Assembly: GCA_903813345.2 (NCBI GenBank)
Contig: CAIIXF020000002.1
Span: 25,374,455 to 25,438,454, forward strand
Source: Owenia fusiformis
Lineage: Eukaryota > Annelida > Polychaeta > Sabellida > Oweniidae
Length of the DNA stretch: 64,000 nucleotides
Reading direction: 5' to 3'
A program made the translations under genes and the position numbers. The notes beneath the pieces are model-generated. The model was not told the origin of the DNA and did no database searches. It was given only the letters and a program-made list of their open reading frames with translations. Positions 9,311-59,739 of the stretch are shown piece after piece. Position 1 is the first letter of the stretch. Each line of letters opens with the position of its first letter.

Positions 9311-9837
9311 TAAACCACGGAGTCTTGTTTATCATTTCCAGGGTTATCTTTGTTTTGATTATTTCCCCGTGTTGTATAACCTTTAATTTCCTTGGCGCAC
9401 AAGTCGCTGTACTTGTATGTTGAATAATATACACCACCTACCGTCGACTTGTCTGATAGTACATTCTCATTTATATAAGAAGTTATAATGAATAATTAAA
9501 TGATTGAGTCAAATACAGAAAATATTGCGCCATGGAAAGTCTTATTTCACACCATGGCCATGGGCAAGTCAGATTGCAAAATGTCACCATTATAGTGAGT
9601 ATAGACCAGTGATATTTTGATGTCATTTGGATATTGAAATGTCATTTCGGTCATTAACAGCATCAAAATCAATTGAGTGCAATATAACACATAACACACC
9701 GTGATAATAAGCCCTTTAATCTACCCTTGTTACGTGGAGAGTCATGATGAATTACAAATAAACTCCGACGGAACAAATGAAATGAATTATCAACCAGGAA
9801 CGGAAAACTAGCTTGAATTTCTGAGTGGGTTGCAAAT
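9311..9837. other. Gene-free sequence left of the 36-bp array
   Basis: Nothing recognised. Confidence 0.4.
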
Positions 9838-11452
9838 TGATCTTGCTAGTTAAGGTAGGCCAGGGAGTATAAGTTATATTGCTAGTTAAGGTAGGCCAGG
9901 GAGTATAAGTAATCTTGCTAGTTAAGGTAGGCCAGGGATTATAAGTAATCTTGCTAGTTAAGGTAGGCCAGGGATTATAAGTAATCTTGCTAGTTAAGGT
10001 AGGCCAGGGAGTATAAATAATCTTGCTAGTTAAGGTAGGCCAGGGAGTATAAGTAATCTTGCTAGTTAAGGTAGGCCAGGGAGTATACGTAATCTTGCTA
10101 GTTAAGGTAGACCAGGGAGTATAAGTAATCTTGCTAGTTAAGGTAGGCCAGGGATTATAAGTAATATTGCTAGTTAAGGTAGGCCAGGGAGTATAATTAA
10201 TCTTGCTAGTTAAGGTAGACCAGGGAGTATAAGTAATCTTGCTAGTTAAGGTAGGCCAGGGATTATAAGTAATATTGCTAGTTAAGGTAGGCCAGGGAGT
10301 ATTAGTTATATTGCTAGTTAAGGTAGGCCAGGGAGTATAAGTTATATTGCTAGTTAAGGTAGGCCAGGGAGTATAAGTAATCTTGCTAGTTAAGGTTGAC
10401 CAGGGAGTATAAGTAATATTGCTAGTTAAGGTAGGCCAGGGAGTATAAATAATCTTGCTAGTTAAGGTAAGCCAGGGAGTATAAGTAATATTGCTAGTTA
10501 AGGTAGGCCAGGGATTATAAGTAATATTGCTAGTTAAGGTAGGCCAGGGATTATAAGTAATATTGCTAGTTAAGGTAGGCCAGGATGTATAAGTAATCTT
10601 GCTAGTGAAGATAGGCCAGGGAGTATAAGTAATCTTGCTAGTTAAGGTTGGCCAGGGAGTATAAGTAATCTTGCTAGTTAAGGTAGGCCAGGGAGTATAA
10701 GTAATCTTGCTAGTTAAGGTAGGCCAGGGAGTATCAGTAATCTTGCTAGTTATGGTAGGCCAGGGAGTATAAGTAATCTTGCTAGTTAAGGTACGTGTAA
10801 GTCAGGGAGTATAAGTAATCTTGCTAGTTAAGGTAGGTCAGGGAGTATAAGTAATCTTGCTAGTTAAGGTAGGCCAGGGAGTATAAGTAATCTTGCTAGT
10901 TAAGGTAGGTCAAGGAGTATAAGTAATCTTGCTAGTTAAGGTGGGCCAGGGAGTATAAGTAATCTTGCTAGTTAAGGTAGGCTAGGGAGTGTAAGTAATA
11001 TTGCTAGTTAAGGTAGGCCAGGGAGTATAAGTAATCTTGCTAGTTAAGGTAGACCAGGGATTATAAGTAATCTTGCTAGTTAAGGTAGACCAGGGATTAT
11101 AAGTAATATTGCTAGTTAAGGTAGGCCAGGATGTATAAGTAATCTTGCTAGTGAAGATAGGCCAGGGAGTATAAGTAATATTGCTAGTTAAGGTAGACCA
11201 GGGATTATAAGTAATATTGCTAGTTAAGGTAGACCAGGGATTATAAGTAATATTGCTAGTTAAGGTAGGCCAGGGAGTTTAAGTAATCTTGCTAGTTAAG
11301 GTAGGCCAGGGATTATAAGTAATCTTGCTAGTTAAGGTGGGCCAGGGAGTATAAGTAATCTTGCTAGTTAAGGTAGACCAGGGAGTATAAGTAATCTTGC
11401 TAGTTAAGGTGGGCCAGGGAGTATAAGTAATCTTGCTAGTTAAGGTAGACAA
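9838..11452. repeat. 36-bp minisatellite array, about 45 copies
   Basis: The unit is roughly ttgctagttaaggtaggcc followed by agggagtataagtaatc, repeated head to tail with period 36. Variants alternate at a few sites (taatctt/taatatt, ggcc/gacc, gagt/gatt). One unit near 10791 is 42 bp long. A rare variant block (caggatgtat followed by gtgaagatag) occurs at 10581 and again 546 bp later at 11127, which is fifteen units including the long one and shows a block duplication. Period 36 is 12 codons, so open frames across it are incidental. Confidence 0.97.
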
Positions 11453-18247: not shown

Positions 18248-18558
18248 CGTCCATCTGGTACTACACAGAAAATTAAACGTCAGAGATCAAACTATCAAAC
18301 ATCAAATATTTAGCAGTGATTCTAATACGAACCAGAGACAGTAAATTGTAGCATTTTGAGTGTTCGGTGCAGGTTTATACAAGTATCGGAACCAGAGGAG
18401 AATAAGCCAGTGTGTAGCTAATAAAGAGAACAGTTTACCGCTGAGTAGTCGTGTTTTCCGTCCTGATACAAGTTATCCAGGCGAGCCCACTAGAGATACT
18501 CCACTTCGGACAAGATAGCAAGAAGTACTTCAAGGGGAGATATATATAAGACTTCAAG

Positions 18559-19128
18559 ATGAGTTTGGTGGGTGGTTATCCCCAAAACTTTCATTCTACA
18601 GGGCCACATCACGAGTATTACGCAGCCTATCCACAAACCAGGTACCAAGAATCGCAGTTCGCGCACACGCATTCCGAACCTTATTTCCAGAACTGGATGG
18701 TAAGTCCCCCTGGACTAAGCCCAGATATGCCTATTTCGGAGAACGTGAACGTTTATGGGGGATACACAAATTCACCGTCTCCCGGGGGAGATCCTAATTG
18801 TCAAATGGAAGCTATGCATCGTATGGGGTACACTATAGGCCCCGATGGACAGATTGTACGCGTGGTGAAAAGAAAAAATACAGCAAATAAAAAAGAACGA
18901 AGAAGAACTGTTAGTATAAATACAGCTTTTGCAAATCTTAGAGGGTGTATACCAAATGTACCCTCAGATACAAAACTGTCTAAAATCAAAACTTTAAGAC
19001 TCGCAACCAGTTACATTGCATACCTCACAGACGTTTTAAATAAAGAAGACGATAAAAATGTCGAAGAATTCAAAGCTGATTTATCCAGGAAAAATGAAAG
19101 CAGGGAGGAGAAAAAGCGAAAAGAAATG
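18559..19128 (+). CDS. HAND: HAND coding exon 1 (N-terminus and bHLH)
   Basis: 190 codons from the ATG, ending AAA GAA ATG before the donor gtaaga. Read-through into the intron adds only five residues before a stop, which supports the splice site. It contains the whole DNA-binding and dimerisation domain. Confidence 0.95.
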
Positions 19129-22100
19129 GTAAGATTATTTTGGTAGTTTATGGATACTGTATATAATTATCTTTAAAAATAATGTTCTCTATCCTTAAAA
19201 TTACACATATCCACTCGTTTGAGTCAAAATTATCAAGAACAATTCCACTTTATATTTATTTATTTACATTTTCATATCTTAATTATTTCTTCTTCATCCA
19301 TCGATCTCTGCCACTAAATGTAATTTAATTAGAATTAGAATTTAATTAGAAATAAACATGACAGTATTGAATCAATAATTGATACATTATTAGCTTCAAT
19401 TTTAAATAATTTGGGAAATTTATGCCTTGTGAATTTAACCTTGTAAAATTAATACAAAATTATATTTAGTCTATCTAGTTTAAGAGAAAATTCGATGCAA
19501 AAACACGATTTAATAAATAATTTGGAATATTTGACGTCATTTTAGATAATCTGAACTTCAATGGGACACCAGCAATCTATTAGAATAAATTAATAAAATA
19601 TTGATTTAATTTAATGAAATCAAAAGGCCACCATATATTAATGATCAGGAAGTTACATGTATTAATTAGATAGGCTGTTAAAATATTGTGCGCGGATTAA
19701 CAGATTATTAGATCATCTTCTGAAGTTTCTTTGATCTTTATGGATAATGGGGGATTTGGGGACGATAATCCAGGAAACAACAGAGAACTTGATTCATGGA
19801 TACCAGACTTTATTGACCATTTAACTGATAAGAACGTCTTAAATTATTTACACTTTGAAATTGTTTCAGATGTTTTGCAGATGGTTTGAAATTTAACTAC
19901 TGGTGAAAACTTAAAAGATTAAACATGTTTACAAAATAGATTAAATAAATATTATTTAACCAAATTGAATTATAATCAAAATAATATTAACAATTATTAG
20001 GAATATCTCCTAATATGTGATGAGAACATTGAATGTAATTAAATTAAAAATATTGATTCAAATTAAATTATTATTTAAGTTATAGTATCAATAATTGTTT
20101 TGTATTTACGACTTGATTTGCCATGTTGATATTAACTTTCTAAGCTCTCAAAAAAGGAGTTAGTTTATCGAAATCAAAATAAATTAGTATACGCTTTACG
20201 ATTGTTCAAATGTAAATATTATAAATGTTCAGATTTCAATTTGTATAACAATAGCACAAAGTAGTTAATTATAGTAACATACGCTCGCAATCCTGAGAAA
20301 GTAGAATGTTTAGAGTTGTTTTTCTTTGATGGCTTTATTCTAGTATTTGTTCCCCTTTGCTAATTAAAATACCAATAATTGCTCGATAGAAATCGAAAAA
20401 GTACAAGTCCCGTAATTCGCCAATCAATCACTCTTTCGGAACTTTCTCTGTTGATCATTAATTAGAATATGATGCATTTTGAAAAATCATAATTCAACTA
20501 TATCAATGCAACAAAGGGAGCCATGAAGACACTAGAATTGCACATGAGAATATCCGATTTGAAATACGCTTTACTTGTTGTGATCAAGTGTCTATGATTG
20601 ATCATTAAATAGATGGTTATAAGAGATATTAAGATATCACTCGACGATGGCACACTCCTGCGAAAGTGAAGCGTCCCGATCAAACATTTTGAAATTCTCC
20701 AACAGTCGTGAAAACACTCTTGATATATATCAACAATAATATTAATGATTGGGTATTTTTTCAAAAATGTTGTAATATGTATGGGGAAAAGCAGTTTCCA
20801 AATTTCTGTTTACATGGTGTAATTCATATTATGCTTCGTGAAATTATTATTTTTCCTGGAGGGGTTTTGCATCCATGCTTGAGTGCGTCTAATTTACTGC
20901 ACGTGTGTCAAGAAAACAGAATCACATTGTTGCAAACTTGAAACATTTAGATACATTTATTTCTTTTTCAAATTGTTCCACATCGATGTAATAAAGATTC
21001 AAGTGATATAATTCTAATACCATTTTAGTACTGAATGAAATGAATTTTTAAGTTGTCCTCCTGTTTGGGAATTAATTCGTCCATTAAGCGCATATAGAAG
21101 GTTTCAGAAATATAGCTAAGGTTGACATGGATATCTTTAAGAAATATTTCATTTTATATTGTTATAGGAGGAGGTACTCTTACTTAGTTGTGTCATGCAA
21201 TATCCACACCAGGGTAAAGCAGAGTCGATTATCGTATTAATCTCTTCCACAAATAATCAGTAATTAGACAATAAGATTAAAACCACTTTGAACTTTGAGA
21301 AATAATATTTGGCATAGAATCGGGTAAGGGTCATTTACCGCTACCACAAATAACAATCAGTTATTAATTAATAAGCAATTAATAACCAATTAGACAATAG
21401 GGTGATATGGCCTAGAGCGATGTTTGCTCGTCATTCAATCCTGAAATTTTCCAGTTGGTAAACTCTGTAGAAATCTTGGCGTTATTTAATACTCTATTTT
21501 TACCAAAAGAGATAATTTAATTAAATCTTCTACTCTAAACGTATCTCAAAAACAGGAAATACGCCGGATATTGTCGTAATTTACCTATAGAACTAATGAT
21601 GCGCAGAGACCAGACTACTTCATGGTAAATTGTTTTTTGGAGTTCGCTTCACAAAACAAAACAGCATAGTAAAAACTAAATCGTCTCGTTAAAGTATTGC
21701 TCTATTATCAGTATCTATTTAGTAGACCTGAGGCCATTAATCTCAGCAAAGAGCATAGGGTTGTAAAGTCACTCAAGTAAAAAATGCTTCAGAAAGATAC
21801 ATGTTGATCAGTTTGTGAGGTCCTATATCTTATCAAAAAAAGACTTCATGATTTCAAATGATTGTGTCATGAAACGACAATAATATCGTATAATAATCGC
21901 CCTAATATTTCATTGCTAAAGTATAGTATCTGTTTGTCAACGTTATCCATACGTACAAAATACAACTTGTTACTTTTAAATAACGTATGTATGAGTTAGA
22001 AAAAACTAATAAAAATTGAAGGGAAAATTCAGTCTGACAGCCTGGCTAACTCGTATCATCATACTGGCGTCTTCTGGGGAAACTCTCGACCGAAAAGTTT

Positions 22101-31200: not shown

Positions 31201-31500
31201 TGATAGCTTCAAGACTAAAGATCAGAAGTTTAGTTGATGATAAATTCTACAATTTGATTACCCCCGCACCTGTGTGTAGCGACGATATAGACAAGGGTCG
31301 CCTGCAGTCGTTTGTTTTAAAGAATGGTAATGACAAAGTAGTTCGAAAACTAATGATTCCGATGCATATTCTCAGGCGTGCAACTCATTCTGAAGACCAT
31401 GCGTGATCATAAATATGATTATTTTTCTAGATATATTGAATATTTACCGTTGAACATGTATCTATTTACCCCATTGTTTCATCTGCTAGGCGAGTCCGAT

Positions 31501-31950
31501 CCGGTACTCAAGCTTTCTTATCAATTGAATGGGGTACTCACTCTATTTAATCAATCCAATCGGGTACTCAAGCTATTTAATCAATTAAATATGGTACTCA
31601 AGCTATTTAATCAATTGAATCGGGTACTCAAGCTGTTTAATTAATTGAATCGTGTACTCAATCTATTTAATCAATTGAATCTGGTACTCAAGCAATTTAA
31701 TCAATTCATTCGGGTACTCAACCTATTTTATCAATTCAATCGGGTACTCAAGCTATTTAATCAATTCAATCGGGTACTCAAGCTATTTAATCAATTCAAT
31801 CGGGTACTCAAGTTATTTAATCAATTCAATCGGGTACTCAAGCTATTTATTCAATTCAGTCGGGTACTCACCCTATTTAATCAATTCAATCGGGTACTCA
31901 AGCTATTTAATCAATTCAATCGGGTACTCAAGCTATTTAATTAATTAAAT
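31501..31950. repeat. 30-bp minisatellite, 15 copies
   Basis: The unit cgggtactcaagctatttaa + tcaattcaat repeats with exact period 30 (ten codons). Outer copies are more diverged than the inner ones at 31740-31945, which is typical of array homogenisation from the centre. The plus frame reads NRVLKLFNQF over and over. It is broken once by TAA near 31642, and no coding context surrounds it. Confidence 0.95.
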
Positions 31951-43686: not shown

Positions 43687-44879
43687 CAAGGGCGTTACAA
43701 TACCCGGGAATTTATCGGTTCGTGCAGTACTTGTTTGTGATAGCGCCCTCTGTAGGTCACTGTGCTTATAGCCTACAGTAATACGGGGTAGGATATCGGG
43801 AATTCGGTCAGTTTCTATCCGTCGATTTCGCTATGAATTGAAGCAAGTGTGACCACTTTATCCACTTAAACAATTTGATAATTGATTAAATCTTTAAACA
43901 AAATCGATAAACACGTTATACACTTCCTATCTCCTTAGAAATTAGCATGTATTTATGGATTGTGTTTTCGAACAAGGCTCGACCCATAACCAATAGGGAA
44001 ATCCTTATGCTAATTAGTATGACGTCATATTTTCCTGGGGAATCCTAGATTTCAAAGCCTCAGTCTGTTATTGTGTCAAATGTAAACGCTCTTTTGCAGA
44101 CAGAAAATTGACAGATTAGCTTTTAACTTTCAGCTTTGATGTTTAAATATTCTGTATTTCTACCGGACTTCTTGCTGAATATCATATAATGTTATAACTT
44201 GATTTGGACCATTGCCTGATTGATCATTCTGAAATTTTGATTGTGATTTATGATTGATTGGCAAGAAAAATAATTCCTATTGTTTTCCAGCGAAGTCAAA
44301 ATGTTACAGCATGCGTTATAATGTCGAGTTTGCATCATGTTAAATTCTGCTAGTGATTAGAAGTCCATGCACAAGCATACACATAAGAGACAAACACACC
44401 CAGGCTCCAGGCCCTGGATGGAAATATAAAACTATTTAAGGCACAAACTGGTATTAATAGACCGATATGTAGTGTCTGCCATTTATTGAAGGTAAACCAA
44501 TCTGCATTATTAATGTTTCTTCTATCAATACATGGATTGTGCAATAGAAAAGCAATGGCACAATCAAAAATGTGCATATAAATCGTGAATATCTCTCGGT
44601 TCAAAGCTTATTTCCAACAGAATCGTGTCAAAATATGTGTCTGAGTAACAGTTATACATTATAAGATCGCAAACTCTTACCAATTATCAGCCGAATGGCT
44701 CATTTTCAACGAAATGTCCTTAAGACAACAGCCCTGGGTCGCGCCTGAGACCAAAAACTACTTCAAATAGCCCTCCCCTAATTATATTGGATAATCACAT
44801 TTATGCGTGCGCGCGCAGCTCATCCACTGAACGAAACGCCACTTCCCGCTGAAATCACCGGGTATTGATCTTTCCCTTG
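43687..44879 (+). mobile_element. 1.19-kb non-autonomous DNA transposon, copy 1, TSD AGCTAGA
   Basis: An element of 1193 bp that is about 99 percent identical to 47025-48218. The left end CAAGGGCGTTACAATACCC and the inverted right end CAAGGGAAAGATCAATACCC are imperfect terminal inverted repeats. The 7-bp direct repeat AGCTAGA flanks it (43680-43686 and 44880-44886). There is no transposase; the longest frame is about 85 codons and unremarkable. A 7-bp duplication with CAAGG-type ends might suit a P-like element, but the superfamily is not established. It sits about 255 bp downstream of the TIFA-like stop codon, probably in or just beyond its 3' UTR. Confidence 0.93.
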
Positions 44880-45135: not shown

Positions 45136-46473
45136 TCACTTTAATATGATTACTCTTTCATCCGACTCCTCGGGAAACCTGTCTGGCATTTCTTGAGGTG
45201 ATCTATGTCGAGCCCCCAGCGCCATGGCCAATGGGTGACCGTCACAGGGACCACGTGGTGCTGACGAGTGCGGCTGCGTGACATAGGGGTCTTGGTGACC
45301 TTGACCTGTGTGGGGGTCAGGTGGACACCGACATTGATCACCAGAGTAACCAGACTGGGCATGCGCACTAGGATAAGGCTGACCTTTATATGATGAAGGA
45401 TGCTGCACGTGACCACCTTGGTGATAATGTTGTCCTTGAGGGTTTTGATACCTCTGTTGATTCATTTGATTCTGCGCTCCTTGTGTTTGATAATATATCT
45501 GATGATCACCAGGGTTCGGTGGATTCGGATGTTGCGGGCCATACTGATTGGCATTATAAAGTTGGTGTCTCTCATTTGGCCGCTGGTAGAGCTGTTGATG
45601 CGGTGCGGGGATGGGATATTCTGATTGGGTGAAACGGGTAGGAGGTTGACTTGGATTAGAAAACCCGAATCCATTACTAGGAGGGCCTTGTAGTGGTAGG
45701 GGGCTGTTGACATGACCAACGGGCTGGCCATCACTTCCCATACGATAGGGGAACGACTGTGAAAATGAAGACTCGTTGGAAGAATTCTCCGACCCTGGGA
45801 ATGACATACTCGACACTGGTCCAGGTATAGCATCAGTACCAGTTGAAAAACTTACACTAGCTGATCCAAATCCGCTTGAAAGTCGTTTCAACGTTGTGTG
45901 CTCATCAGCCTTTGTTACAGGTACACCATTTGTAGGTTTTGGCGTGCCGTTAATGTGAGCTTTGTCAAATATGATTTCCCACTTCTCAGCCAAAATGTCA
46001 CCTTGATTTATAGTGACATTCATTTTGAATGCATCTAGTTTAACGATGTTATTGTCGGTGATTGCTTGTGCGCAATTAGGATTGACTGCATTATCATTGA
46101 TGTAAATAGTCTTAGTTTTACTGATGTTCTTTAACATAAATGTAGGATTGCCTGAATCTACGGAGAAAGTCAATTCAGCAAATTGTCTTGATGCTGTTTT
46201 GTGATTTAATCGTACATCAGATGTCTCCGCGCGTCCAAAACTAACAGACGTATCTTTAGTTCGTACCAGACTTTCAGGCATATATTCTACCATGGCTTGT
46301 GTCACTGACGAATCGGGGAAGCCAAATATGATAACGAATGGTGTGAGAACAGTGTCAGCACATGCGTCTTCTTGTATCGCTAGTTTGTCAGCCGTCGCCT
46401 CCGCCAGTTCATCTACAGTATCAGCGGTCGTGCTAACCTCGACGAACGCGTTCTCTTTCGATTTGGCTGTCAT
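45136..46473 (-). CDS. TIFA: TIFA-like FHA adaptor protein
   Basis: A 445-residue protein in one coding exon; an acceptor (tttaatttcag) lies 6 bases before the ATG, so a 5' UTR intron is likely. The FHA domain spans about residues 46-170. FGR (R81), the SR pair (S95, R96) and KNISK (K115, N116) align with human TIFA Arg51, Ser66, Lys88 and Asn89, which bind phospho-Thr9. Two acidic ADT motifs (T19, T41) precede the FHA and are candidates for the phosphorylated Thr. The C-terminus has two PxExx(acidic) TRAF6-type motifs, PQEMPD (426-431) and PEESDE (434-439). Between them, residues about 190-420 form a Pro/Gln/His/Tyr-rich disordered stretch absent from the 184-residue human protein. In mammals TIFA is phosphorylated via ALPK1, polymerises and activates TRAF6 and NF-kB. 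ALPK1 lies next door, head to head. Identity rests on FHA detail, termini and neighbour. Confidence 0.85.
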   Translation of the reverse strand: MTAKSKENAFVEVSTTADTVDELAEATADKLAIQEDACADTVLTPFVIIFGFPDSSVTQAMVEYMPESLVRTKDTSVSFGRAETSDVRLNHKTASRQFAELTFSVDSGNPTFMLKNISKTKTIYINDNAVNPNCAQAITDNNIVKLDAFKMNVTINQGDILAEKWEIIFDKAHINGTPKPTNGVPVTKADEHTTLKRLSSGFGSASVSFSTGTDAIPGPVSSMSFPGSENSSNESSFSQSFPYRMGSDGQPVGHVNSPLPLQGPPSNGFGFSNPSQPPTRFTQSEYPIPAPHQQLYQRPNERHQLYNANQYGPQHPNPPNPGDHQIYYQTQGAQNQMNQQRYQNPQGQHYHQGGHVQHPSSYKGQPYPSAHAQSGYSGDQCRCPPDPHTGQGHQDPYVTQPHSSAPRGPCDGHPLAMALGARHRSPQEMPDRFPEESDERVIILK

Positions 46474-47017
46474 TGTGATCTGAAATTAAAATGACATCCT
46501 AAGTTTAATCCCATCTGTTTCGTAAATTAATGTCGTATTTTTCCGATGATTTTTTTATACTGAACTAATCATTAATATGGATAACTGCAATAACAAGAAA
46601 ATTATCAAAAAGGTCGAGGATAGATCAATATATAGATTCTATATCAAATGATTGCGTATGGCATCGTTAACACTCCCGTTTCTTGGTAATTAAACAAAAG
46701 TTAGTTAAAGTTTACAAAAATGCTAAAAAGGTGTTGTAATATCCTGCTAATCGATATCTCGTTAGATAAAACGAAAACATATGTTACCATGTTAGGCTAC
46801 ATATAGGGGAGGGGTAAAACTGGATGTGTTGATTATGCATGACTCCAGACTCACCATTTGCCCTATTTACTAGAGTTACAGCAAAAAATTATGTATGGAC
46901 TTTAAAATATTGAAAACAAAAATGTAATATTTATATCGCTTAGATGGGTTATGTAGACGTTAAACAAATGTTTGTTTCGAGACAAAAACTTGATCTCGGT
47001 GTCTTGTTATTTTATGG
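46474..47017 (-). other. Sequence upstream of the TIFA-like coding exon, probably intron
   Basis: The acceptor AG at 46481-46480 (minus strand) implies that this stretch is a 5' UTR intron. The leader exon was not identified. No other feature was recognised. Confidence 0.5.
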
Positions 47018-47024
47018 CGTGGAC

Positions 47025-48218
47025 CAAGGGCGTTACAATACCTGGGAATTTATCGGTTCGTGCAGTACTTGTTTGTGATAGCGCCCTCTGTAGGTCACTG
47101 TGCTCATAGCCTACAGTAATACGGGGTAGGATATCGGGAATTCGGTCAGTTTCTATCCGTCGATTTCGCTATGAATTGAAGCAAGTGTGACCACTTTATC
47201 CACTTAAACAATTTGACAATTGATTAAATCTTTAAACAAAATCGATAAACACGTTATACACTTCCTATCTCCTTAGAAATTAGCATGTATTTATGGATTG
47301 TGTTTTCGAACAAGGCACGACCCAGACCAATAGGGAAATCCTTATGCTAATTAGTATGACGTCATATTTTCCTGGGGAATCCTAGATTTCAAAGCCTCAG
47401 TCTGTTATTGTGTCAAATGTAAACGCTCTTTTGCAGACAGAAAATTGACAGATTAGCTTTTAACTTTCAGCTTTGATGTTTAAATATTCTGTATTTCTAC
47501 CGGACTTCTTGCTGAATATCATATAATGTTATAACTTGATTTGGACCATTGCCTGATTGATCATTCTGAAATTTTGATTGTGATTCATGATTGATTGGCA
47601 AGAAAAATAATTCCTATTGTTTTCCAGCGAAGTCAAAATGTTACAGCATGAGTTATAATGTCGAGTTTGCATCATGTTAAATTCTGCTAGTGATTAGAAG
47701 TCCATGCACAAGCATACACATAAAAGAGACAAACACACCCAGGCTCCAGGCCGTGGATGGAAATATAAAACTATTTAAGGCACAAACTGGTATTAATAGA
47801 CCGATATGTAGTGTCTGCCATGTATTGAAGGTAAACCAATCTGCATTATTAATGTTTCTTCTATCAATACATGGATTGTGCAATAGAAAAGCAATGGCAC
47901 AATCAAAAATGTGCATATCAATCGTGAATATCTCTCGGTTCAAAGCTTATTTCCAACAGAATCGTGTCAAAATATGTGTCTGAGTAACAGTTATACATTA
48001 TAAGATCGCAAACTCTTACCAATTATCAGCCGAATGGCTCATTTTCAACGAAATGTCCTTAAGACAACAGCCCTGGGTCGCGCCTGAGACCAAAAACTAC
48101 TTCAAATAGCCCTCCCCTAATTATATTGGATAATCACATTTATGCGTGCGCGCGCAGCTCATCCACTGAACGAAACGCCACTTCCCGCTGAAATCACCGG
48201 GTATTGATCTTTCCCTTG
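47025..48218 (+). mobile_element. 1.19-kb non-autonomous DNA transposon, copy 2, TSD CGTGGAC
   Basis: 1194 bp in the same orientation as copy 1, from which it differs by roughly a dozen substitutions and small indels. It is flanked by its own 7-bp direct repeat CGTGGAC (47018-47024 and 48219-48225). The different flanks prove two separate insertions and not a segmental duplication. It lies upstream of the TIFA-like coding exon, probably within its 5' intron or the intergenic space. Confidence 0.94.
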
Positions 48219-48225
48219 CGTGGAC

Positions 48226-51043
48226 CATGCACTTGTAACATATTGAACAATTACAGGCACTGGCAAAGTAATTTATGTCGCAAGACGACTGGACTATACA
48301 TGTATATTGTCACTGTGAATACCACTTCTTTCTTGGTCATTCGACCTACACAAGAGTGGGTTAAAGTTTAGACAAATACGTACTCAAACGAAAGGTGTTG
48401 TAATATCTTGTTAATCAATATCTGAACTCATCCCATTGAGATAAAAAAATGAATAAATAAAAATAAATAACCATGTTACATACAGGGGAGGGGTGAAACT
48501 GCAAATCCTGTTGTACCATTTGTACCATTTTCTAATTACGACAACGACAAACCAATTTGTCTTATGTCCAATTTGATTATGTAATATGATCAAACACTCA
48601 TATGGAAAACATAGGAAAGATATGAAGAATTTTAATGAACTTTAAAATTACATCAAATAATGTATCTATAAATTAATAAAATCCCGTCAAAATATCTCTT
48701 TTTATGTAGGCATTTTACAAACAATGGTAAAAATGTTGATGTTGTTGTAACATGTAGGCATGATAAACCCTGCACTCGATACATAGTGAATTACAAATCC
48801 AAGCACCATCTAACGGGTGGAGGAGAAGAAAGCATCAACGAATGCAAAGCACGAATGCAAAGTTAAGAAACAACACACGAGTGGATTAAATATAAATCAC
48901 CCTAAAATTCATTGAGTCCTGGGCTTACATTAATATAGAAGTCTAGTGTTTAGTCTACTGCATGCAATCAGCTCTCTAAATATAACTTGGCATGGTGAAC
49001 CTTGGCTTAAACATTGTAAATGGAAAAGGTTAACGTGAATGTATCGATTATTCCAAGTTCTAAAATCTGGTTATATGGAATCGTTTCTTAGAATCATAAG
49101 GTTGATCGAGTAGTTCTTACCTTGGCCACCTGACCGCTTTCTTTGCTTGTCTTTCAAGTTATCCTAATTTGACCGGTAGTCCATTCAAATATATCCAGTT
49201 AACGATTACATTATCAGTCATATGTTTCAGCTGTGAATCGATAATTAAATAGTGCTTCTATTGAGGAATCTATTACTGTGTTATCGTTTTCTTATCCCAC
49301 TGTTGTTGAGTGTTGTTTGTACTACTGTTACAAGTGTTTCGCTGGAAGTATATGAATGTATGATTCATTTCCTCTGACTTCTTAACGTTAATAAGAAGCT
49401 GTTTGGCTTTGTTCCACTTGAAAGATACATGCTACACAATTGAAGATCAATGGAATTCAGCTGGCAAAAAGGGGATTCCCAGAACTGATTCAAAAATTCT
49501 GAATTTCCAGAAAGTCATCATCATTGCATCAACCGATCAGCTTAATCAATAACCTCCGACAAAAGAGAGACACTAGATTAATCGAGAATTTAAACGCTGC
49601 GTTATTGAGAGGTCATCGCAACCTGTTGTTAAAGGCTATAATCCAGGCTTCATAAGTACCACAGTATGTGATTGTTCATGTGAGTATTAACTTACCAATA
49701 TTCTCATATAAAACATAGAACAGTATAAAGTTACATGTACTTACTGACTTTAGTGAGTTTTTCTAGCTAGCATTCCTGAGTTTATCCACTGTTATGCGAC
49801 CTGTATTCAGTACTGATTATCTGTTTACAAAGTACGTTGTTTTCACTGTTCTTTTTACACTCGATGTCTGTCAAAGTACATGTACATGCCCTGTACAGGG
49901 ACCTATACCACCGTTATACTAACCTTAAGTTATTTACTCCTTATAAAAATCTGTTTCATATCATCTTAACGTTATACACGCAAGAAAATGCTCGTCAATA
50001 TCATCGTTAAATAGCGATGTATAGGCGTGAATTGAAGCATTCAGCCAACCACCACTGAATGGTAAACTTTTGAGAATCATATATCGGTTAATAAACAAGA
50101 TGAACATTTTGTCCGCCTATATTCATTCTGTTATTTAGGCCACTGACTGACTGGAATGCTTAGAGTAAACAACGAAGATTACTTTTATTTATAAGATTCG
50201 AGATAGAATGGTCAAATGTAAAACCTTTGGACTTTCATTAATAGGCTTAAAGACAAGGAAGTGAATTCAACTATTTATTGTTATTATCATTTGTCTAGCA
50301 TTGGCTGGAATTCGACAAAGTTTGGTAAGTAAACACAAGTTATTAGTCCTATATGTGACGTATCCATTTTGATGAGGCCTGCACGAAAGCATGTCAGTCA
50401 TGCTGGTGTGTTAGCATGGATTGGATGTAGCCAGACATATTTTACATTTTTTCAGACTTTTCACCTCAATCCAATGTCGAGATGAAGTTTTAGTATATAT
50501 ATTTAGCTTTATTAACTGTATGTTAGGTAAAATGCCTCTTTACCTCACCACCTTGCCTCACCTATTGAGTTTTGCCTCGCCAAATTCTATGTCCTTAAAG
50601 TAAACAAGCAAAAGTACTTAATTTACCCTGGTTAGTCCCCGGGGGTTAGTCTCAGAAATGATAGTAAACAAGTTCGTCATTGCCGGTAGGGGTCCATGGG
50701 CTTAAATACAATAAAATATGACGAATGTTTCCGGATCATAAAAAACATTGATATCAGTGTACTTTTGGTATCTGATTCCGGTGCTTTGTGAATACTAGAT
50801 AGTATTGCGACATAGCCCAATCTTGATATTTTTTGTATGTTGTTGTTTAGGTATCATGTGTAGGACAGACTTCAGTGACATCTATTAAATGATCTCTATT
50901 CAATCCTTGTCATGCGTGTAGTGATATATTATAATTATTTACACCCATACATAAACTTTAACCGCACAGCTAACGTTATCAGCGTCACGGAAGTGGCAAT
51001 CTGCCCAATTTATCACATCATCTGTATGGCATTTCCATTTCAG
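48226..51043. other. Space between the TIFA-like gene and ALPK1
   Basis: Must hold the leader exons and promoters of one or both divergent genes, but none could be placed with certainty. A consensus kB site is at 49471-49480. No other coding sequence was seen. Confidence 0.5.
49471..49480 (+). promoter_or_regulatory. Consensus NF-kB site GGGGATTCCC
   Basis: A full match to GGGRNNYYCC, located between the divergent TIFA-like and ALPK1 genes. Because this pathway ends in NF-kB activation, a feedback site would make sense. A single ten-base match can also arise by chance in 64 kb. Confidence 0.35.
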
Positions 51044-51103
51044 ACATTAAACTAATGTTCATGTGATTCGCCCCATCAAAACGAGACACCTTCAACATAC
51101 AAG

Positions 51104-53741
51104 ATGGTTCACAAGCCACTGGAGGAATGGCTTGGGATTCTATCCCCAAGATTACGGAAGTTGTTGGATGTCGCGAAGTCAATGGCCTGGCCATTTGTAC
51201 CCGAAGAGTGGCAATATATTGATGACGAAAACCTTACTGAAGAACAAACGGTCAATCTAAAAGACTTGATCCTTTCTAAAAATGCCATCAGGGATGACTT
51301 AAAAGAATGCGACGTTTTAATGGTACGTATATCTTAGAACTGCATTGAACACGTAAGTACTGAGTAGCTGTTACAGAGTTTGTCATGATGACCAGTTCTT
51401 TCTTCTGACTTTTTGCTAACTACAAGAAATAAAAGGTACAGCAAATATTGTCGAATCCGAACGCCCCCTGGGCCTAAAAGTGTTCCGTCGGAATGACAGG
51501 TGTTCAGATTTCAGGTTCTTGTACATAGTATTCTATGGCAGATTAAAAGTGTGACCAAAAATCGTTCATATTTAGGGATTTCATATTAGAGAAGTGTTTG
51601 AATATATGCACACAGGCAACATTGAGATACAAATGCCTCTTATTTTTCAAAGAGGGATAGAGGTCTTTGGCCAAAGAATTTTTCATCTATTTGCTAAGCT
51701 ATTAGAAAGCTGCGATTTCACCAGGGCCTTTTAGAGTTCATTCTTACGTGTTTTATTTGAGGGACTGACGTCTTTGTCCAAATCCAAATCCCTATAATTT
51801 CATATATTTGCTAAGCTATTAGAAAACTGCGATTTAACCAGGGCCTTTCAGAGATCATTCTTACGTGTTACACTGATATGAGAAAGGGAAACGTGAAACA
51901 CGTCTATGTTAGGCTATGCTTGCCAAGAGTTCAATTTTTAGAAGCAGATGTATGTGTGGTACCCTCTTACCCACCGCCATTATTGTAAAATGAGTAAACT
52001 TCAATATGTATTGAATGTACTGCTTGAACTGAAATAAAAATCCATTAAAAAAAGATGATATGAGAAAGACACGAACGATTTTGTTTGATTTGTGCCATTA
52101 TTTTCAGGAATGTGTTGATTCAGCTATAGACAGTGATGACTTTCCGACTGCAGCAGCAGCACTGTTTCTTATAGACAGGTAAGCCTTGTGATGCATCTGC
52201 TATTCCAGTTTTACGGAACTTTGAATAAACTGCACTATTTTATCTGCAGATCAAGTCTCTAAATTGATTCTAGTTATGTCATCACCACATATTGTTATAG
52301 TCAACAACTTTTTTGTGGACGGCGGTCGGCGATCGGCGTCTGTTACAAATGACAGGTGGTGACATTTGCCATGTCAATGCCTTGTGTTCCAAATATTTTC
52401 GTAATTTATACCTAGGTGCTAAGTATGCCACGTGTACCAGTTCAACTAGTATATATTTGTATTTATATACATGTGAAATAAAACTTTGTACCTTTCTTTG
52501 AATCTGTTCAAAGGTTTATGTACTGGTTTGGCGGAAGTCCTACTTTGCTACGGCTGATTGCCACTATAGAGGAAAGTAGTCCCGACACGCCTATAGCACC
52601 ACAGATAATGATACGCAAGGCGAGAGTGAAAAAAGATCGAGGTCAACTCCAGGAGGCCGAGATAATTCTTAATAAAATAACCAACACTTGTAAAGGTAAA
52701 TAATTCATTGACTTGATTTATTACATGTTGCATGTTGTTATAGTCTCCAACTTTTTTTGTGGACGGTGTTCGGCGGTCGATGGTAGGCGTCTGTAATAAA
52801 TGGCAGGTGGTCTTCTAATGGCGTCTCGTATGTTAAGGAAATATACTTTTGATATTTAATTGGTATAATTGCTGTTCCAGGTAAATGGGTGTACCAGGAC
52901 GAACACCAGTACAACTTAGTATGTGCAGTCTGTGTGCAGATCAAGGGCGTCATACGCTATAATCTCGGTATGTACGTGTACGTATACGTACGTGTACGTG
53001 TATGTACGTGTATATGTGTTAGTAATATACCGTTACAAATTATCTGTAAAGCCTGAAAGATAGTTTTTGCATTCTTTAATTTACTTTTTGGCAAATTTCT
53101 TATAGAACTCTGTTGTAAGTTTGAATTTTTCAAACAAGGTTTTTCAAAATTGCAAAACGGTAAAAATGTATACTAGTAACAGGTAGTCGGTTAATCCTCT
53201 GTGGTTTAGAATATGATTCAGAGTACTGAAAACAAAGTCAGGAAGTATTTAGAATTAGCATAGGTTTTAGTCATCATCACTATGATAAATAATGACATCT
53301 CATTTCTTCTCTTTCGTGTGTATAATGGAACAGAAAAAATGCGATGAGTAGCAGAATGGTTACTTGTAGTCATAAACTCATCGAAACACTGCACTAAAAA
53401 CAGAATCTGTAAAAAAAGAGAACCTGTAAACTAGAATTAAACCCCAATCATCCTTATTCAACTAAATATATCTAGGTCTGTGGCATGAGGCAGCACACTA
53501 CATTCTTGACTCCATCATCGGCTACAACAGTCTCCCCATACCAGACAAGAAAGGAATATCCTCCTCTTTGGGAATTCTTTCTGAGATCTACAAGAATATG
53601 TCACCAGCGACGTTCGCTATGCTTAAACGGGAGTACAATCTCCAGAACTGTGTGTGGCATCCCCTGTTGGAGGGGTACTCCAGTGGGAAGGAAGCCGCAA
53701 GGTTGGGGAGACACGAGAAACTCTACTTCTGTCGACATCTT
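51104..53741 (+). CDS. ALPK1: ALPK1 exons 1-5: ligand-sensing N-terminal domain
   Basis: These five exons (275 codons) encode most of the helical sensor domain. Seven residues I recall as ADP-heptose contacts in human ALPK1 (Phe61, Gln67, Arg116, Arg150, Arg153, Asp231, Lys233) align without gaps in their local motifs to Phe31, Gln37, Arg97, Arg131, Arg134, Asp210 and Lys212. Phe295 of the human protein has no clear match. The exons are short (71-266 bp) and hidden among repeats, so length-based ORF calls miss the 71- and 87-bp exons. Confidence 0.93.
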
Positions 53742-56590
53742 GTAAGTAGATCTATTGATTTTGCCTATCAGGCGCCCCCCCCACCCCCCAGACCCCACAA
53801 AAAAAGAAAAAACAATTTTGAATTTTTTTTTGAAAAGGCATTAAGAAATTAGACTTTGAAATGGTTAGAATGCACCATATACAATGTAATTTTTCAACCT
53901 CGGTAACCCCCCTCCTTTTTGGGGACTCTCTTCGCTTCGCCCCCCCCCCCCCCCCTTTAACGATAGCTGGCTACGCTCATGTATTAATATTGTTTAGTGC
54001 AGAATTCTTGACACCTACTCTGTTTTGAGCATTTAGGATTTACCTCAGGTTCCGATTCCTAGACCTGATTCGAAAGAGAAAGCACATTTAAAAATTAATC
54101 GGCACCAATTCAACAGATCAGATTTCAAATTAAACCAAGAATGTAAAATGTTAACTAAATTAATTATTTAAATAGTTTCAAGAAAACATCTTGAGGTCAA
54201 GTCGAGCAAATGTAAAGTTTAAAAACAAGACAACACTCATGATCGTTCTCTTTATTCAATAGAACTGAGCAAAATACTGTTATATTTTTTTTCAGAGAAG
54301 GGCAACAATAAACCTCTGGCTTTACATTAGTATAATATCTGGACGTAACACTGATCAACAACAGCAGCTACAACAAACGTCTTTCCAACAGGCGCTTGCA
54401 GATATCATCAGAAGCTGTGAAAAGTTTAAAGACTTGAATGACTTCACCAGCAAGGAACAGGCCTTTGAGATGGTTTCAGCAGTATTCTATGTGTATCTAA
54501 CGTTAAAAAGTATTAATGAACATCATGAAGATGCTATATCAATAGAACAACGCAAGAGTATTGAGGAAGTAGAACGTTTTGGAGAAATATGCGTTGTCTT
54601 GTACCAGGACTTATGTACAACAGAATCTCCATTTAGGTTTTCTGACAGAGCACAAGATATGATCATTGAAGCTTTTCATCGTATGGGCCACAAAACGTTT
54701 CACAATAGAGACACAGAAGGGACAGTAAAATGTTTGGTTCCAGTTAGTGAACCAAGGCCAACTGACCATTTTGCATACCCATATAGAGCTGGTGCCGATC
54801 TTGATGTTGAATTTAACCAATTGAGTATTAAAGGCAGCAACACAAGTGATGGTGTTGAAACTGTCATGGAGAAACGTGTTGCTGATTCAGAAAATAAGAT
54901 AGGTGTCGCTGATCCATCAGCTACAACAGTGAGCAGTACATCAGACTATATTATCTCTTCAGATGAATCCAGTGCTACAAATACTACAAATGAATCGGAT
55001 ACTAGCTCCATACATACGAAAAGTACTGATGAATCAAGTCTTAGCTCTGGTTACACTTTCAGCAGTGCTTCATCATCCCTGAGCTCAGTAGACAAATCTC
55101 ATAAAGACATACCTAAACTCCAACATGGTTCTTCCGAACCTTTTAGTCAAGATAGTCATGCGCAAGTCAAACCCGACTCTGTTGAACAAGACTTTTTGGA
55201 TGGAACCATCGATCCTGCCTCTATTGATGTCAATGACGATCTAGAGGTGTCCGCAGAACGCTATGGTCTGTATAGCTTGAATATCACAGCTGATGAAGCC
55301 AAAATGGTACAGCGAGGTAGCATAGATGGAGCAATAAAAATGGGTGTCAGTCGTAAGTAAATACTAGTTATAAATGATCACATTTTAAAATGGGCATAGA
55401 ATTTAATTTATTAAATTCAGGGAAAGGCCATTTTGTCTTTTAGAACAGATCAAATTCTTAGGTCAAATTCTTCTTTGGAATCTAATGTTTTATCTGTCAT
55501 GTCATATTATATAATAAAAAAAGTCATTAACATACAAAATGTCACCACCAGTCATTTGTTACGAACACCGACCTTCGAATGTTGAACACCAACCGCCGAA
55601 CACTAACAGCTGAACACTAACCACAGAAAAAGTACAGACCAACAGAATGGCATCACATGTGGTGGTGACATAGACATAGGTCCCTGTATTTTATTTTTAC
55701 ATGATTCTATCTTATATTTACTGCGACAGGGGCAATTCTGTGGAAGTATAACCCCGAGGAAAGTATGTGGTCAACCCAACCTACGTTGCTGTACGTAGGG
55801 GAGGAGATAAAAGTAGCCACCAAGGGGGCACAACGAGATGTCTACAATGTGCAGTATCTGGAACAAGAGGAGCCTTTGTCGAGGTAGTACCTTCAGAAAG
55901 TTTTCAAATACCTGCTAAGAGGCACAAGCTATTTAATGCACTTTTGTTGTGAATTTCTTTAGAACCAAACAGAAGATACCTGTCCACCAATATATGATTT
56001 TATTGATAATTTACAGATATGCTGGAAAGGTGTACCGTGTGAAACGCCCGATACGCCAATATCAACAAGATGTGGTGTGTCAAATGACTGCAAGGTACTA
56101 CACGGCACTGTTTAATAAAGCTCTTCTTGCCAGCCTTCAACTGGGATCGACAAAATCCAGAGAGACTCGAGTCACATCCACTCAGATCCAGTTCCTGCCA
56201 GTTGTTCACGTGCAAACAATAACAGAAAATGGAGAACTTGGGGGCTATATGAACATCGAGCCATTCGTAGATGAGACATTCATAAAGATCACGAACAACG
56301 CAACGTATAGAAATGTTAAGCTTGATGATGGTCTCGCTACCGCGTTTTCGCACTTCAGTTACGTTGAGTCTGGGGGCAAATTGATGGTGGTTGACCTCCA
56401 GGGTTGGCTTGGTAAAGACAACGATGCAGTCGTACTGCTAACCGACCCACAAATCCATTCTGAGACGTTCACACATTTTGGTTCGTCCAATCATGGGAAA
56501 CGAGGATTCAAAGCATTTTGGGAAAAGGTTCACCCTGAGTGCAGCCATGTTTGTAAACAATTGGGTATAGACACAAAACGTGGACATTAA
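51104..56590 (+). CDS. ALPK1: Alpha-protein kinase 1 (ADP-heptose sensor kinase)
   Basis: Eight coding exons with GT-AG borders and consistent phases: 51104-51322, 52108-52178, 52514-52695, 52881-52967, 53476-53741, 54296-55352, 55730-55883 and 56017-56590, giving 869 residues. The N-terminal helical domain (about 1-420) contains WPFVPEEWQY, IDRF, PIAPQIMIRKAR and PDKKG, all close to human ALPK1. A Ser/Thr-rich linker (about 480-540) leads to the C-terminal alpha-kinase domain (about 629-865) with Lys683, Glu760, DLQGW (805-809), TDPQIH, GKRG and the CxxxC zinc pair. Human ALPK1 binds bacterial ADP-heptose in the cytosol and phosphorylates TIFA. An acceptor at 51043 starts the exon holding the ATG, so a non-coding first exon lies upstream. 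A tiny upstream ORF (51055-51066) precedes the start. The protein is shorter than human ALPK1 (1244) mainly in the linker, and lacks about 30 N-terminal residues. Confidence 0.96.
51660..51890. repeat. 117-bp tandem duplication in ALPK1 intron 1
   Basis: ttgctaagctattagaaa..tgcgattt.accagggccttt.agag.tcattcttacgtgtt occurs twice, with matching points at 51691 and 51808. Confidence 0.8.
52276..52365. mobile_element. TGTCACCACC-family mini-element, ALPK1 intron 2
   Basis: Ends atgtcatcacca and ggtggtgacat are inverted. The core gtggacggcggtcggcgatcgg is GC-rich. About 90 bp, non-coding. Confidence 0.65.
52721..52812. mobile_element. TGTCACCACC-family mini-element, ALPK1 intron 3
   Basis: Shares gttgttatagtc.ccaactttttttgtggacgg, ggcgtctgt and aatggcaggtgg with the intron 2 copy, in the same orientation. 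Its outer ends are decayed. Confidence 0.6.
52969..53017. repeat. TACGTG-type microsatellite
   Basis: Runs of tacgtg/tatgtacg immediately after the ALPK1 exon 4 donor. The donor gtatgt is itself part of the repeat. Confidence 0.8.
53769..53982. mobile_element. Probable CAGGCCCGTAGCCAG-family MITE, ALPK1 intron 5
   Basis: A right end gctggctacgctcat preceded by a 16-base C run (53940-53955) resembles the family terminus, and a caggcgcccccccc left end lies about 214 bp away. The interior is poorly conserved. Confidence 0.45.
54296..55352 (+). CDS. ALPK1: ALPK1 exon 6: end of sensor domain and Ser/Thr-rich linker
   Basis: A 1057-bp exon for residues 276-627. The first part completes the helical domain. 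Residues about 480-540 are almost half Ser/Thr with Asp/Glu, so they are probably disordered and phosphorylated. Human ALPK1 likewise has its unstructured middle in one big exon, but that is several hundred residues longer. Confidence 0.93.
55539..55671. mobile_element. TGTCACCACC-family mini-element, ALPK1 intron 6
   Basis: Perfect 11-bp inverted ends ATGTCACCACC and GGTGGTGACAT. The interior carries repeated gaacac.aac.gc units, an expansion relative to the 90-bp copies. Confidence 0.75.
55730..56590 (+). CDS. ALPK1: ALPK1 exons 7-8: alpha-kinase catalytic domain
   Basis: Exons 55730-55883 and 56017-56590 encode residues 628-869. Lys683 in RYAGKVYR matches the catalytic lysine of human ALPK1 (Lys1067 mutants are inactive). 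Glu760 in IEPF is the adenine-side Glu, Asp805 and Gln807 of DLQGW are catalytic, and His791, His851, Cys854 and Cys858 are likely zinc ligands. All core residues are present, so an active kinase is expected. The stop is TAA at 56588-56590. Confidence 0.95.
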
Positions 56591-58891: not shown

Positions 58892-59739
58892 CTAAAACCA
58901 TTTGCTACACAACTTTACATCACAGAATTCCCATCTGCTATTACTGTCTGTGGTGTAGCACCACGGACCGTCCGACATTTCGTCAGGATTGCGACAATAG
59001 TTGCTAGCTTCCGCCAAGGTGTCTTCTGGGAAATGTAGGATGTTATTCCAAGTGTGTTGATGGGGATACTGCGCGTCCCATCTCTGACATGTTCTTCCAG
59101 ACTTAGTAACGGATAGCTTTCCAGAGTACCACATGCCCACCGCATCAAATTTACATTCTAAGGATTCAGGTGTCCAATCCCCTGGAAACGAAATCAATAC
59201 ATTATTTGACACCCAAATCTTTTCTGAAACCCAGAGGAACTTTACAAGATAATAAAAACATGGACTGTGCTCTCATTCATTACGTGTATTTGTGAGATCG
59301 TATGAATATATGTAAGGATGTTACGTTGAACACTAAGTTTACATCGTTAATCCTTAGACTTAAACCTACCATATCTTGCATAGTGATCAACATCTTCCGT
59401 TGTATTTCCTGGCGGATCCTGAGTAGCGCTTGGTCCATTCAATTCACAAACTTTCATATGTTTCTCTCCTTCTATTCGCCGAATATTGAACGAGTGACAT
59501 TCGTCTGGTTTTGCGAAACAGCTAGCTGCACATCGCATATCGGACACAACTTTAAACGACTTCAGTGGATTGTCTATGCGTTCTGAAGACGGGTACATTA
59601 CGCAGGTCACATTTGTCATCTGATGTTTCGAGAGATTTATTGAAACGGTCACTGCGTTCGCCTTTGCAAATAACATATCCGAAAATACGGCACAAATTAA
59701 CACCTTTAATATTTTTTTCATTTTAGTTTCTTTATGCAT
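58892..59739 (-). CDS. Secreted PAN/apple-kringle protein, two exons
   Basis: Minus-strand exons 59739-59370 and 59181-58892 join in phase 1 through GTAGGT and tttccag, giving 219 residues. A hydrophobic signal peptide covers about residues 8-29; Met7 is an alternative start. Residues about 44-122 look like a PAN/apple domain with Cys 46, 70, 74, 81 and 98. Residues 133-215 are a full kringle with six cysteines (133, 155, 186, 198, 210, 215) and the hallmarks YSG, TCQRW, NYCRNPD, GPWCYTTD and RWEFC. PAN plus kringle occurs in HGF and plasminogen, but here there is no protease domain and only one kringle, so it is probably a small secreted ligand-binding or matrix protein. tatata at 59776-59781 could be its TATA box with a very short leader. 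Function unknown. Confidence 0.85.

Follow-up and report, generated by a model that had tools for sequence, protein, structure and literature searches.

The closest described relatives of the locus analysed here are vertebrate ALPK1, a kinase activated by ADP-heptose, and vertebrate TIFA with TIFAB. In the human kinase, losses at Arg150, Arg153 and Lys233 abolish activation by ADP-heptose according to the available text of two studies (PMC10723048, PMC11614533), the second of which also names Thr237 as the specificity gatekeeper and describes a Tyr254Phe variant close to wild type. As far as the available portions of the sources go, PMC11573728 limits homologues of both ALPK1 and TIFA to vertebrates and proposes that the sensor arose there once deuterostomes had lost heptose synthesis. 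Similarly restricted to the accessible text, PMC12457700 states that both genes are absent from invertebrate lineages, PMC13143021 speaks of three vertebrate ALPKs, and in two insect papers alpha-protein kinase 1 appears as an annotation in a table or in the text, without analysis.

We analysed a stretch of 64,000 nucleotides from the genome of the annelid Owenia fusiformis (hereafter the window; C2:25374455-25438454). It carries a TIFA-like FHA gene on the minus strand and an ALPK1 gene on the plus strand, which are divergent and about 4.6 kb apart (4630 bp from start codon to start codon); positions 45136-56590 cover the coding span of this pair only (Table 1). We read the locus as an invertebrate ALPK1-TIFA-type module, made of a heptose-sensing ALPK1 orthologue and a divergent TIFA-like adaptor, with a probability of roughly 0.78; we infer its lasting linkage and, from the analogy with mammals, its ligand binding, phosphorylation and polymerisation.

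Table 1. Features of the gene pair and of the element copies beside it (positions in the window)
Feature	Position	Strand	Basis
TIFA-like gene, 445 aa from one coding exon (open frame 45136-46485; coding sequence 46473-45136)	45136..46473	-	ORF, first ATG, Pfam FHA
Candidate phospho-acceptor segment ADTVLT, residues 39-44	46342..46359	-	Compared with human TIFA ADTEET around Thr9
FHA domain with FGR, ASR, KNISK	46036..46245	-	Compared with human TIFA FGR (Gly50/Arg51), VSR (Ser66), KNMSK (Lys88/Asn89)
C-terminal TRAF6-type PxExx(acidic) motifs PQEMPD (426-431), PEESDE (434-439)	45139..45201	-	Compared with human PTEMDE around Glu178
ALPK1 gene, 8 coding exons, 869 aa, 0 internal stops	51104..56590	+	Exon model; 7/7 introns GT-AG
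ALPK1 exons 1-4 (51104-51322, 52108-52178, 52514-52695, 52881-52967): initial portion of the heptose-binding domain (Arg131, Arg134 = human Arg150, Arg153)	51104..52967	+	PDB matches, alignment
ALPK1 exon 5: PDKKGISSS (Lys212 = human Lys233, Ser216 = human Thr237)	53476..53741	+	PDB match, alignment
ALPK1 exon 6: further N-domain sequence, Ser/Thr-rich linker	54296..55352	+	Gene model
ALPK1 exons 7-8 (55730-55883, 56017-56590): alpha-kinase domain (Lys683 = human Lys1067, Asp822 = human Asp1194)	55730..56590	+	Pfam, PDB, alignment
Transposon-like element copy between the genes, bounded by CAAGGG...CCCTTG and, by eye, flanked by a 7-base repeat	47025..48218		Genome search
Another copy of this element (98.9% identity), with the same ends and, by eye, a 7-base repeat, beyond the TIFA-like gene	43687..44879		Genome search

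Identity of the plus-strand kinase gene

On sequence grounds, the plus-strand gene can be assigned securely as an ALPK1 orthologue. Exons 1, 3 and 5 match the heptose-binding domain of ALPK1 in the PDB (5z2c; E 2e-6, 1.8e-6 and 6.9e-12, respectively), and the kinase exon matches Pfam Alpha_kinase (E 2.8e-32). By phmmer against the PDB, the best match of the kinase exon is the ALPK1 kinase 9j4p (E 1.7e-24, eEF2K following at 1.6e-12), with 90.1 and 88.1 bits for ALPK1 and then 51.1 for eEF2K. BLASTP against a human ALPK1 sequence consistent with the printed PDB stretches gave E 5e-48, with identities of 96/229 (42%) for the N-domain and 82/236 for the kinase. The alignment of the N-domain to this human sequence scored 436, while 300 shuffles had a mean of 35, a standard deviation of 5 and a maximum of 59.

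The kinase tree is weak, and it is the N-domain that decides the assignment. Under LG+G4 (about 133 columns), the window kinase groups with two ALPK1 rows (support 82/89), yet joining it to eEF2K instead is statistically acceptable (p-AU 0.154), and human eEF2K is its top identity in the tree alignment (39% over 97 columns). A mixture-model tree left the window kinase unplaced and contained an absurd branch length (10); the analysis was redone under the simpler LG+G4. We read the gene as ALPK1 rather than eEF2K because it has the N-domain, which eEF2K is not known to carry.

The human genome has six alpha-kinase genes. Our search of the 498-Mb Owenia genome found three alpha-kinase loci (five exon matches, seven candidates scored), and the combination of an ALPK1-type kinase and N-domain was read at one of them, in the window. 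The locus on scaffold C9 reads as eEF2K. The alpha-kinase domains on C9 and C10 share the DPQ(I/V) motif with the window ALPK1, and no ALPK1-type N-domain was seen in the 8.5-9 kb around each of them. The C10 locus (L030, C10:8215809-8216066) reads neither as ALPK1 nor as eEF2K and appears to be a third alpha-kinase type.

The FHA neighbour

By its anatomy the neighbouring gene is TIFA-like, and we would put at about four in five that it is TIFA, its sequence alone being insufficient as proof. The predicted protein (Pfam FHA E 9.5e-7) consists of an acidic, Thr-rich N terminus, an FHA domain at residues 77-146, a long Gln/Pro/Asn-rich tail and C-terminal TRAF-type motifs. It resembles vertebrate TIFA and TIFAB in the acidic/Thr N terminus ahead of the FHA domain, in the FGR and KNxSK stretches within it, in PxExx(acidic) at the extreme C terminus, in the adjoining ALPK1 and in its single coding exon, which human TIFA presumably has as well. 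It differs in its length (445 aa versus 184 aa for human TIFA), in the tail of about 270 aa rich in Gln, Pro and Asn, and in having two TRAF6-type motifs. Should the neighbour be TIFA, this long two-motif form would show which parts evolution has kept: the N-terminal Thr, the FHA domain and the C-terminal TRAF6 hook.

The sequence-only reading had noticed TIFA-type details in this protein, and we find such details in the FHA residues and the C-terminal motifs, together with ADTVLT as a candidate phospho-acceptor segment. When the first 60 residues are shuffled, ADTxxT turns up in 1.5% of cases. The TRAF6-binding pattern is PxExx(acidic), and both PQEMPD and PEESDE lie in the last 20 residues; in tail shuffles, at least one such motif falls in the last 25 residues in 1.6-3.3% of cases and at least two in 0.01-0.05%, while SPxEM, common to human TIFA, does so in 0.03-0.04%. 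All these shuffle figures are optimistic, as the motifs were sought after the protein sequence had been read. The FGR, VSR and KNMSK residues of the TIFA FHA domain presumably bind phosphate; KNxS[KR], counted anywhere in the frame, is not unique to the window protein (L013), since it recurs in L020 and L026 and hence in 3 of 27 FHA frames. Fits to the canonical TRAF2 motif, as defined in the available text of PMC12457700, are found at SPQE (425-428, by eye) and AIQE (32), and PGSE (226) fits PxxE, none of them at the human TRAF2-motif sites (Gln150-Glu151; Pro159-x-x-Glu162). The role of human Glu178, around which the TRAF6-type motif is compared, is taken from the accessible part of PMC13283784. 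A single-sequence structure prediction for 190 aa around the FHA domain had a mean pLDDT of 30.2 and is useless for fold comparison.

Similarity searches are less favourable. Human TIFA did not retrieve the FHA gene from the Owenia genome, its one hit, on C5, being at chance level (E 6.38; five candidates scored). Against the PDB, phmmer returned no TIFA at E<=1 for the full-length protein and none at E<=10 for the FHA part, and the latter matched only itself in its own genome. A two-sequence TIFA-only profile ranked the window protein fifth with 2.4 bits (23 rows reported, 27 FHA frames), the best being L004 with 17.0, and a TIFA+TIFAB profile ranked it first with a lead of 0.8 bits over L005 (26 rows reported, 27 FHA frames). 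The reciprocal best hit with vertebrate TIFA that had been anticipated therefore fails, given the missed retrieval and the fifth rank. The FHA tree combines four TIFA/TIFAB rows with 11 FHA frames out of 27, that of the window among them, and has no resolution. It yields neither the outcome that would have refuted the sequence-only reading, a place outside TIFA, nor the one that would have confirmed it; the window row falls outside the TIFA/TIFAB fork, yet constraining it to join TIFA/TIFAB costs 0.72 log-likelihood units and is not rejected (p-AU 0.439), and neither are clades with L005 (p 0.279), L001 (0.211) or L014 (0.385). Among the other FHA frames, L005 and L006 (C1:36565286 and C1:36543275) are near-identical exons 22 kb apart and belong to another FHA gene, probably recently duplicated.

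The lack of significant TIFA similarity, the unresolved FHA tree, the fifth rank by the TIFA-only profile and the long low-complexity tail are compatible with a true ALPK1 orthologue that has an unrelated, fast-evolving FHA protein beside it by chance. We consider such a coincidence unlikely. The genome contains 27 FHA matches (30 candidates scored), a lower bound in which some matches are exons of one gene, and the expectation that one of these 27 lies at most 5 kb from a given locus by chance is 5.4e-4, or 1.4e-4 for a divergent arrangement. In addition, ADTxxT ahead of the FHA domain and the pair of PxExx(acidic) motifs within 25 residues of the C terminus argue for a TIFA-like adaptor, even with optimistic shuffle figures.

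Heptose pocket, pathway partners and proposed mechanism

With vertebrate ALPK1 (5z2c for the N-domain, 9j4p/8zd3 for the kinase), the Owenia protein shares the N-terminal heptose-binding domain, the C-terminal alpha-kinase and the pocket and catalytic residues. It differs from the human protein, which we take to be 1244 aa long, in its 869 aa, its shorter linker and the replacement of Thr237 by Ser. The counterparts of Arg150, Arg153 and Lys233 are identical, which makes three of four with Thr237 counted; the serine at the gatekeeper position retains the hydroxyl. Phe61, Arg116 and Asp231, presumably pocket residues of human ALPK1, are also conserved, as are the ATP-site Lys1067 and Asp1194, the latter presumably catalytic in the human kinase. 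Human Ser277 is aligned with Glu, in a part where the alignment is weak, and Tyr254 with Phe. The description of the gene as a full ALPK1 holds in that the model yields a full-length protein with the heptose-pocket residues, as judged from the domain matches and the alignment of Arg150, Arg153 and Lys233.

These substitutions (Thr237 to Ser, Tyr254 to Phe and, in the weakly aligned part, Ser277 to Glu) might indicate that the Owenia protein, although conserved, senses a nucleotide sugar other than ADP-heptose. This seems improbable to us: serine keeps the hydroxyl, the three basic residues are conserved, and the human Tyr254Phe variant behaves about as wild type in the available text of PMC11614533.

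In the preferred reading, ADP-heptose sensing, the N-domain of ALPK1 would most likely bind cytosolic ADP-heptose (or a close NDP-heptose) of Gram-negative bacteria. By analogy with mammals, the ligand-bound kinase would phosphorylate the adaptor on a threonine of its acidic N terminus, for which Thr41 is the candidate; a second adaptor copy would bind the phospho-Thr through its FHA domain, and the adaptor would polymerise. Its C-terminal PxExx(acidic) motifs would then recruit TRAF6, leading to NF-kB/AP-1 signalling. The two genes would have been together since the common ancestor of Owenia and vertebrates.

Scaffold C6 encodes a TRAF6-like MATH domain (Pfam TRAF-mep_MATH 2.8e-47), which a fragment of human TRAF6 matches with 49% identity at 145.9 bits, the next of 15 matches having 70 bits. 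The TRAF6_Z2 zinc-finger model gave a best genome score of 23.3, below its 27.4-bit cut-off. The "complete module" of the sequence-only reading accordingly stands for the sensor, the adaptor and a TRAF6-like gene as recognised by sequence, while ligand binding and phosphorylation are proposed from analogy. For a bacterial-type HldE nucleotidyltransferase, the genome search yielded only a 32-aa generic cytidylyltransferase match of 27.6 bits, far below the cut-off of 181.5, although split exons could hide one; synthesis of heptose by the animal through such an enzyme was rejected as a candidate. The result fits an animal that senses, and does not produce, the heptose ligand.

Mollusc ALPK1-like and TIFA-like genes presumably exist as automatic database annotations, and invertebrate ALPK1 may already be in the databases, unremarked. 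Among the matches listed by our literature search (titles and the beginnings of abstracts), no invertebrate pair of an intact-pocket ALPK1 and a linked TIFA-like gene was described. The Owenia ALPK1 contradicts the printed claim of a vertebrate-only gene, and is certain enough to question it. An invertebrate ALPK1 with an intact pocket removes the base of the evolutionary account given in the available text of PMC11573728, and allows the origin of heptose sensing to be tested in an animal that lacks adaptive immunity.

Linkage, surroundings and repeats

The open reading frame, the exon model and the Pfam matches bear out the layout first proposed, an FHA protein on the minus strand and a full ALPK1 on the plus strand, divergent at 4.6 kb. 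By eye, a pyrimidine-rich AG acceptor lies directly upstream of the start codon of the FHA gene (TTTTAATTTCAG before ATCACAATG), and another, CATTTCCATTTCAG, ends at 51043 ahead of the ALPK1 start codon. Since such acceptors stand next to both start codons, the 4630-bp gap probably contains 5' non-coding exons of each gene, as judged by eye, and the two transcripts may begin much nearer each other than the start codons lie.

Human TIFA and ALPK1 are divergent, as in Owenia. Their adjacency, which the sequence-only reading had given as known, agrees with the available parts of a human gene list (...AP1AR, TIFA, ALPK1, NEUROG2...; PMC9935865) and of a goat list (...ZGRF1, ALPK1, TIFA, AP1AR...; PMC10763158). 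The pair appears to be kept and the surrounding block not, because AP1AR-like exons and CaMKII lie on another scaffold, C9, and not on C2. The AP1AR-like matches scored 25.1 and 23.2 bits and so fall short of the cut-off of 27 bits. They (C9:13828353-13828472 and C9:13831489-13831638) are 3 kb apart, cover successive parts of the model and probably represent a real AP1AR-like gene. Vertebrates have four CaMKII genes, of which CAMK2D presumably lies near TIFA/ALPK1 in human; one CaMKII locus was found in the Owenia genome. Together with the sequence divergence and the three alpha-kinase loci, this single locus is evidence against a vertebrate source. A search for COX1 gave no match, nor did the molluscan haemocyanin model, which was run with no positive control. 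Conservation of the human 4q25 block as such is unsupported.

Around the pair, we surveyed 50 kb on either side, ranking open frames by codon use and keeping the best 45. A bHLH exon at 18550-19143 (+), 26 kb from the TIFA-like gene (Pfam HLH 5.7e-18; best PDB matches Twist1 and TAL1), is read as HAND from its sequence. A nearby gene with PHD and extended-PHD domains by Pfam (L039) is read as JADE. WDR55 is also near (L040-L041); one piece of an exon matches it in Pfam at 8.2e-49 without reaching the cut-off set for the whole protein. P450 and kringle exons are recognisable as well. We take HAND, JADE, WDR55 and TIFA/TIFAB to lie on human 4q and/or 5q; our literature search on TIFAB, WDR55, JADE2 and HAND1 at 5q31 found no paper. 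With such human positions, the HAND-like, JADE-like and WDR55 neighbours would fit one ancestral chromosome region. Two similar kringle exons stand on opposite strands 3' of ALPK1, at 58892-59272 (-) and L037:645-944 (+), and are perhaps a duplicated kringle gene.

That the wider block is not kept, with AP1AR-like exons and CaMKII on C9, would also be expected if ALPK1 and TIFA had been ancestrally apart and had paired independently in Owenia and vertebrates, or had been linked recently in Owenia. We find this less probable still than a chance FHA neighbour or a different ligand, as independent pairing needs a rare event twice and the HAND-like, JADE-like and WDR55 genes nearby have human counterparts presumably on 4q and/or 5q, where TIFA/ALPK1 and TIFAB lie. 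An ancient ALPK1-TIFA linkage is the best reading and likely, on the basis of one invertebrate genome compared with mammals. Taken to its full extent, with even odds in our view, it would mean that the ADP-heptose-ALPK1-TIFA-TRAF6 pathway did not originate in vertebrates: the divergent pair would already have existed in the common ancestor of Owenia and vertebrates (for an annelid, the bilaterian one) and have stayed linked by selection for joint control amid reshuffled surroundings. Contamination or a recent transfer of the pair from a vertebrate, to which the vertebrate-only statements in the available text of PMC11573728 and PMC12457700 could point, is extremely improbable in view of the 42% identity only, the eight spliced exons, the 35.75-Mb scaffold, the window without N and the flanking element copies shared with many scaffolds of the same genome.

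About 1.19 kb of the 4630-bp intergenic gap is a copy of a dispersed transposon-like element with CAAGGG...CCCTTG ends, presumably hAT-like. The genome search gave 42 matches spread over many scaffolds, C51 and C119 included; 40 of them reach roughly 1,000 bases or exceed it, at 98-100% identity (40 of 596 candidates scored). The element is a young dispersed family without a recognised protein. The 1.2-kb direct repeats on either side of the TIFA-like gene raised the idea that this gene is mobile or arose by tandem duplication, which was rejected, the repeats being two copies of this element. Elsewhere in the window, long frames of short tandem repeats at 9752-11278 (-) and 31357-31944 (+), of the TPWPTLTSKITY and FNQFNRVLKL types, are probably minisatellites, and a reverse transcriptase fragment at 79-1341 (-) (Pfam RVT_1 5.5e-35) looks LINE-like by eye.
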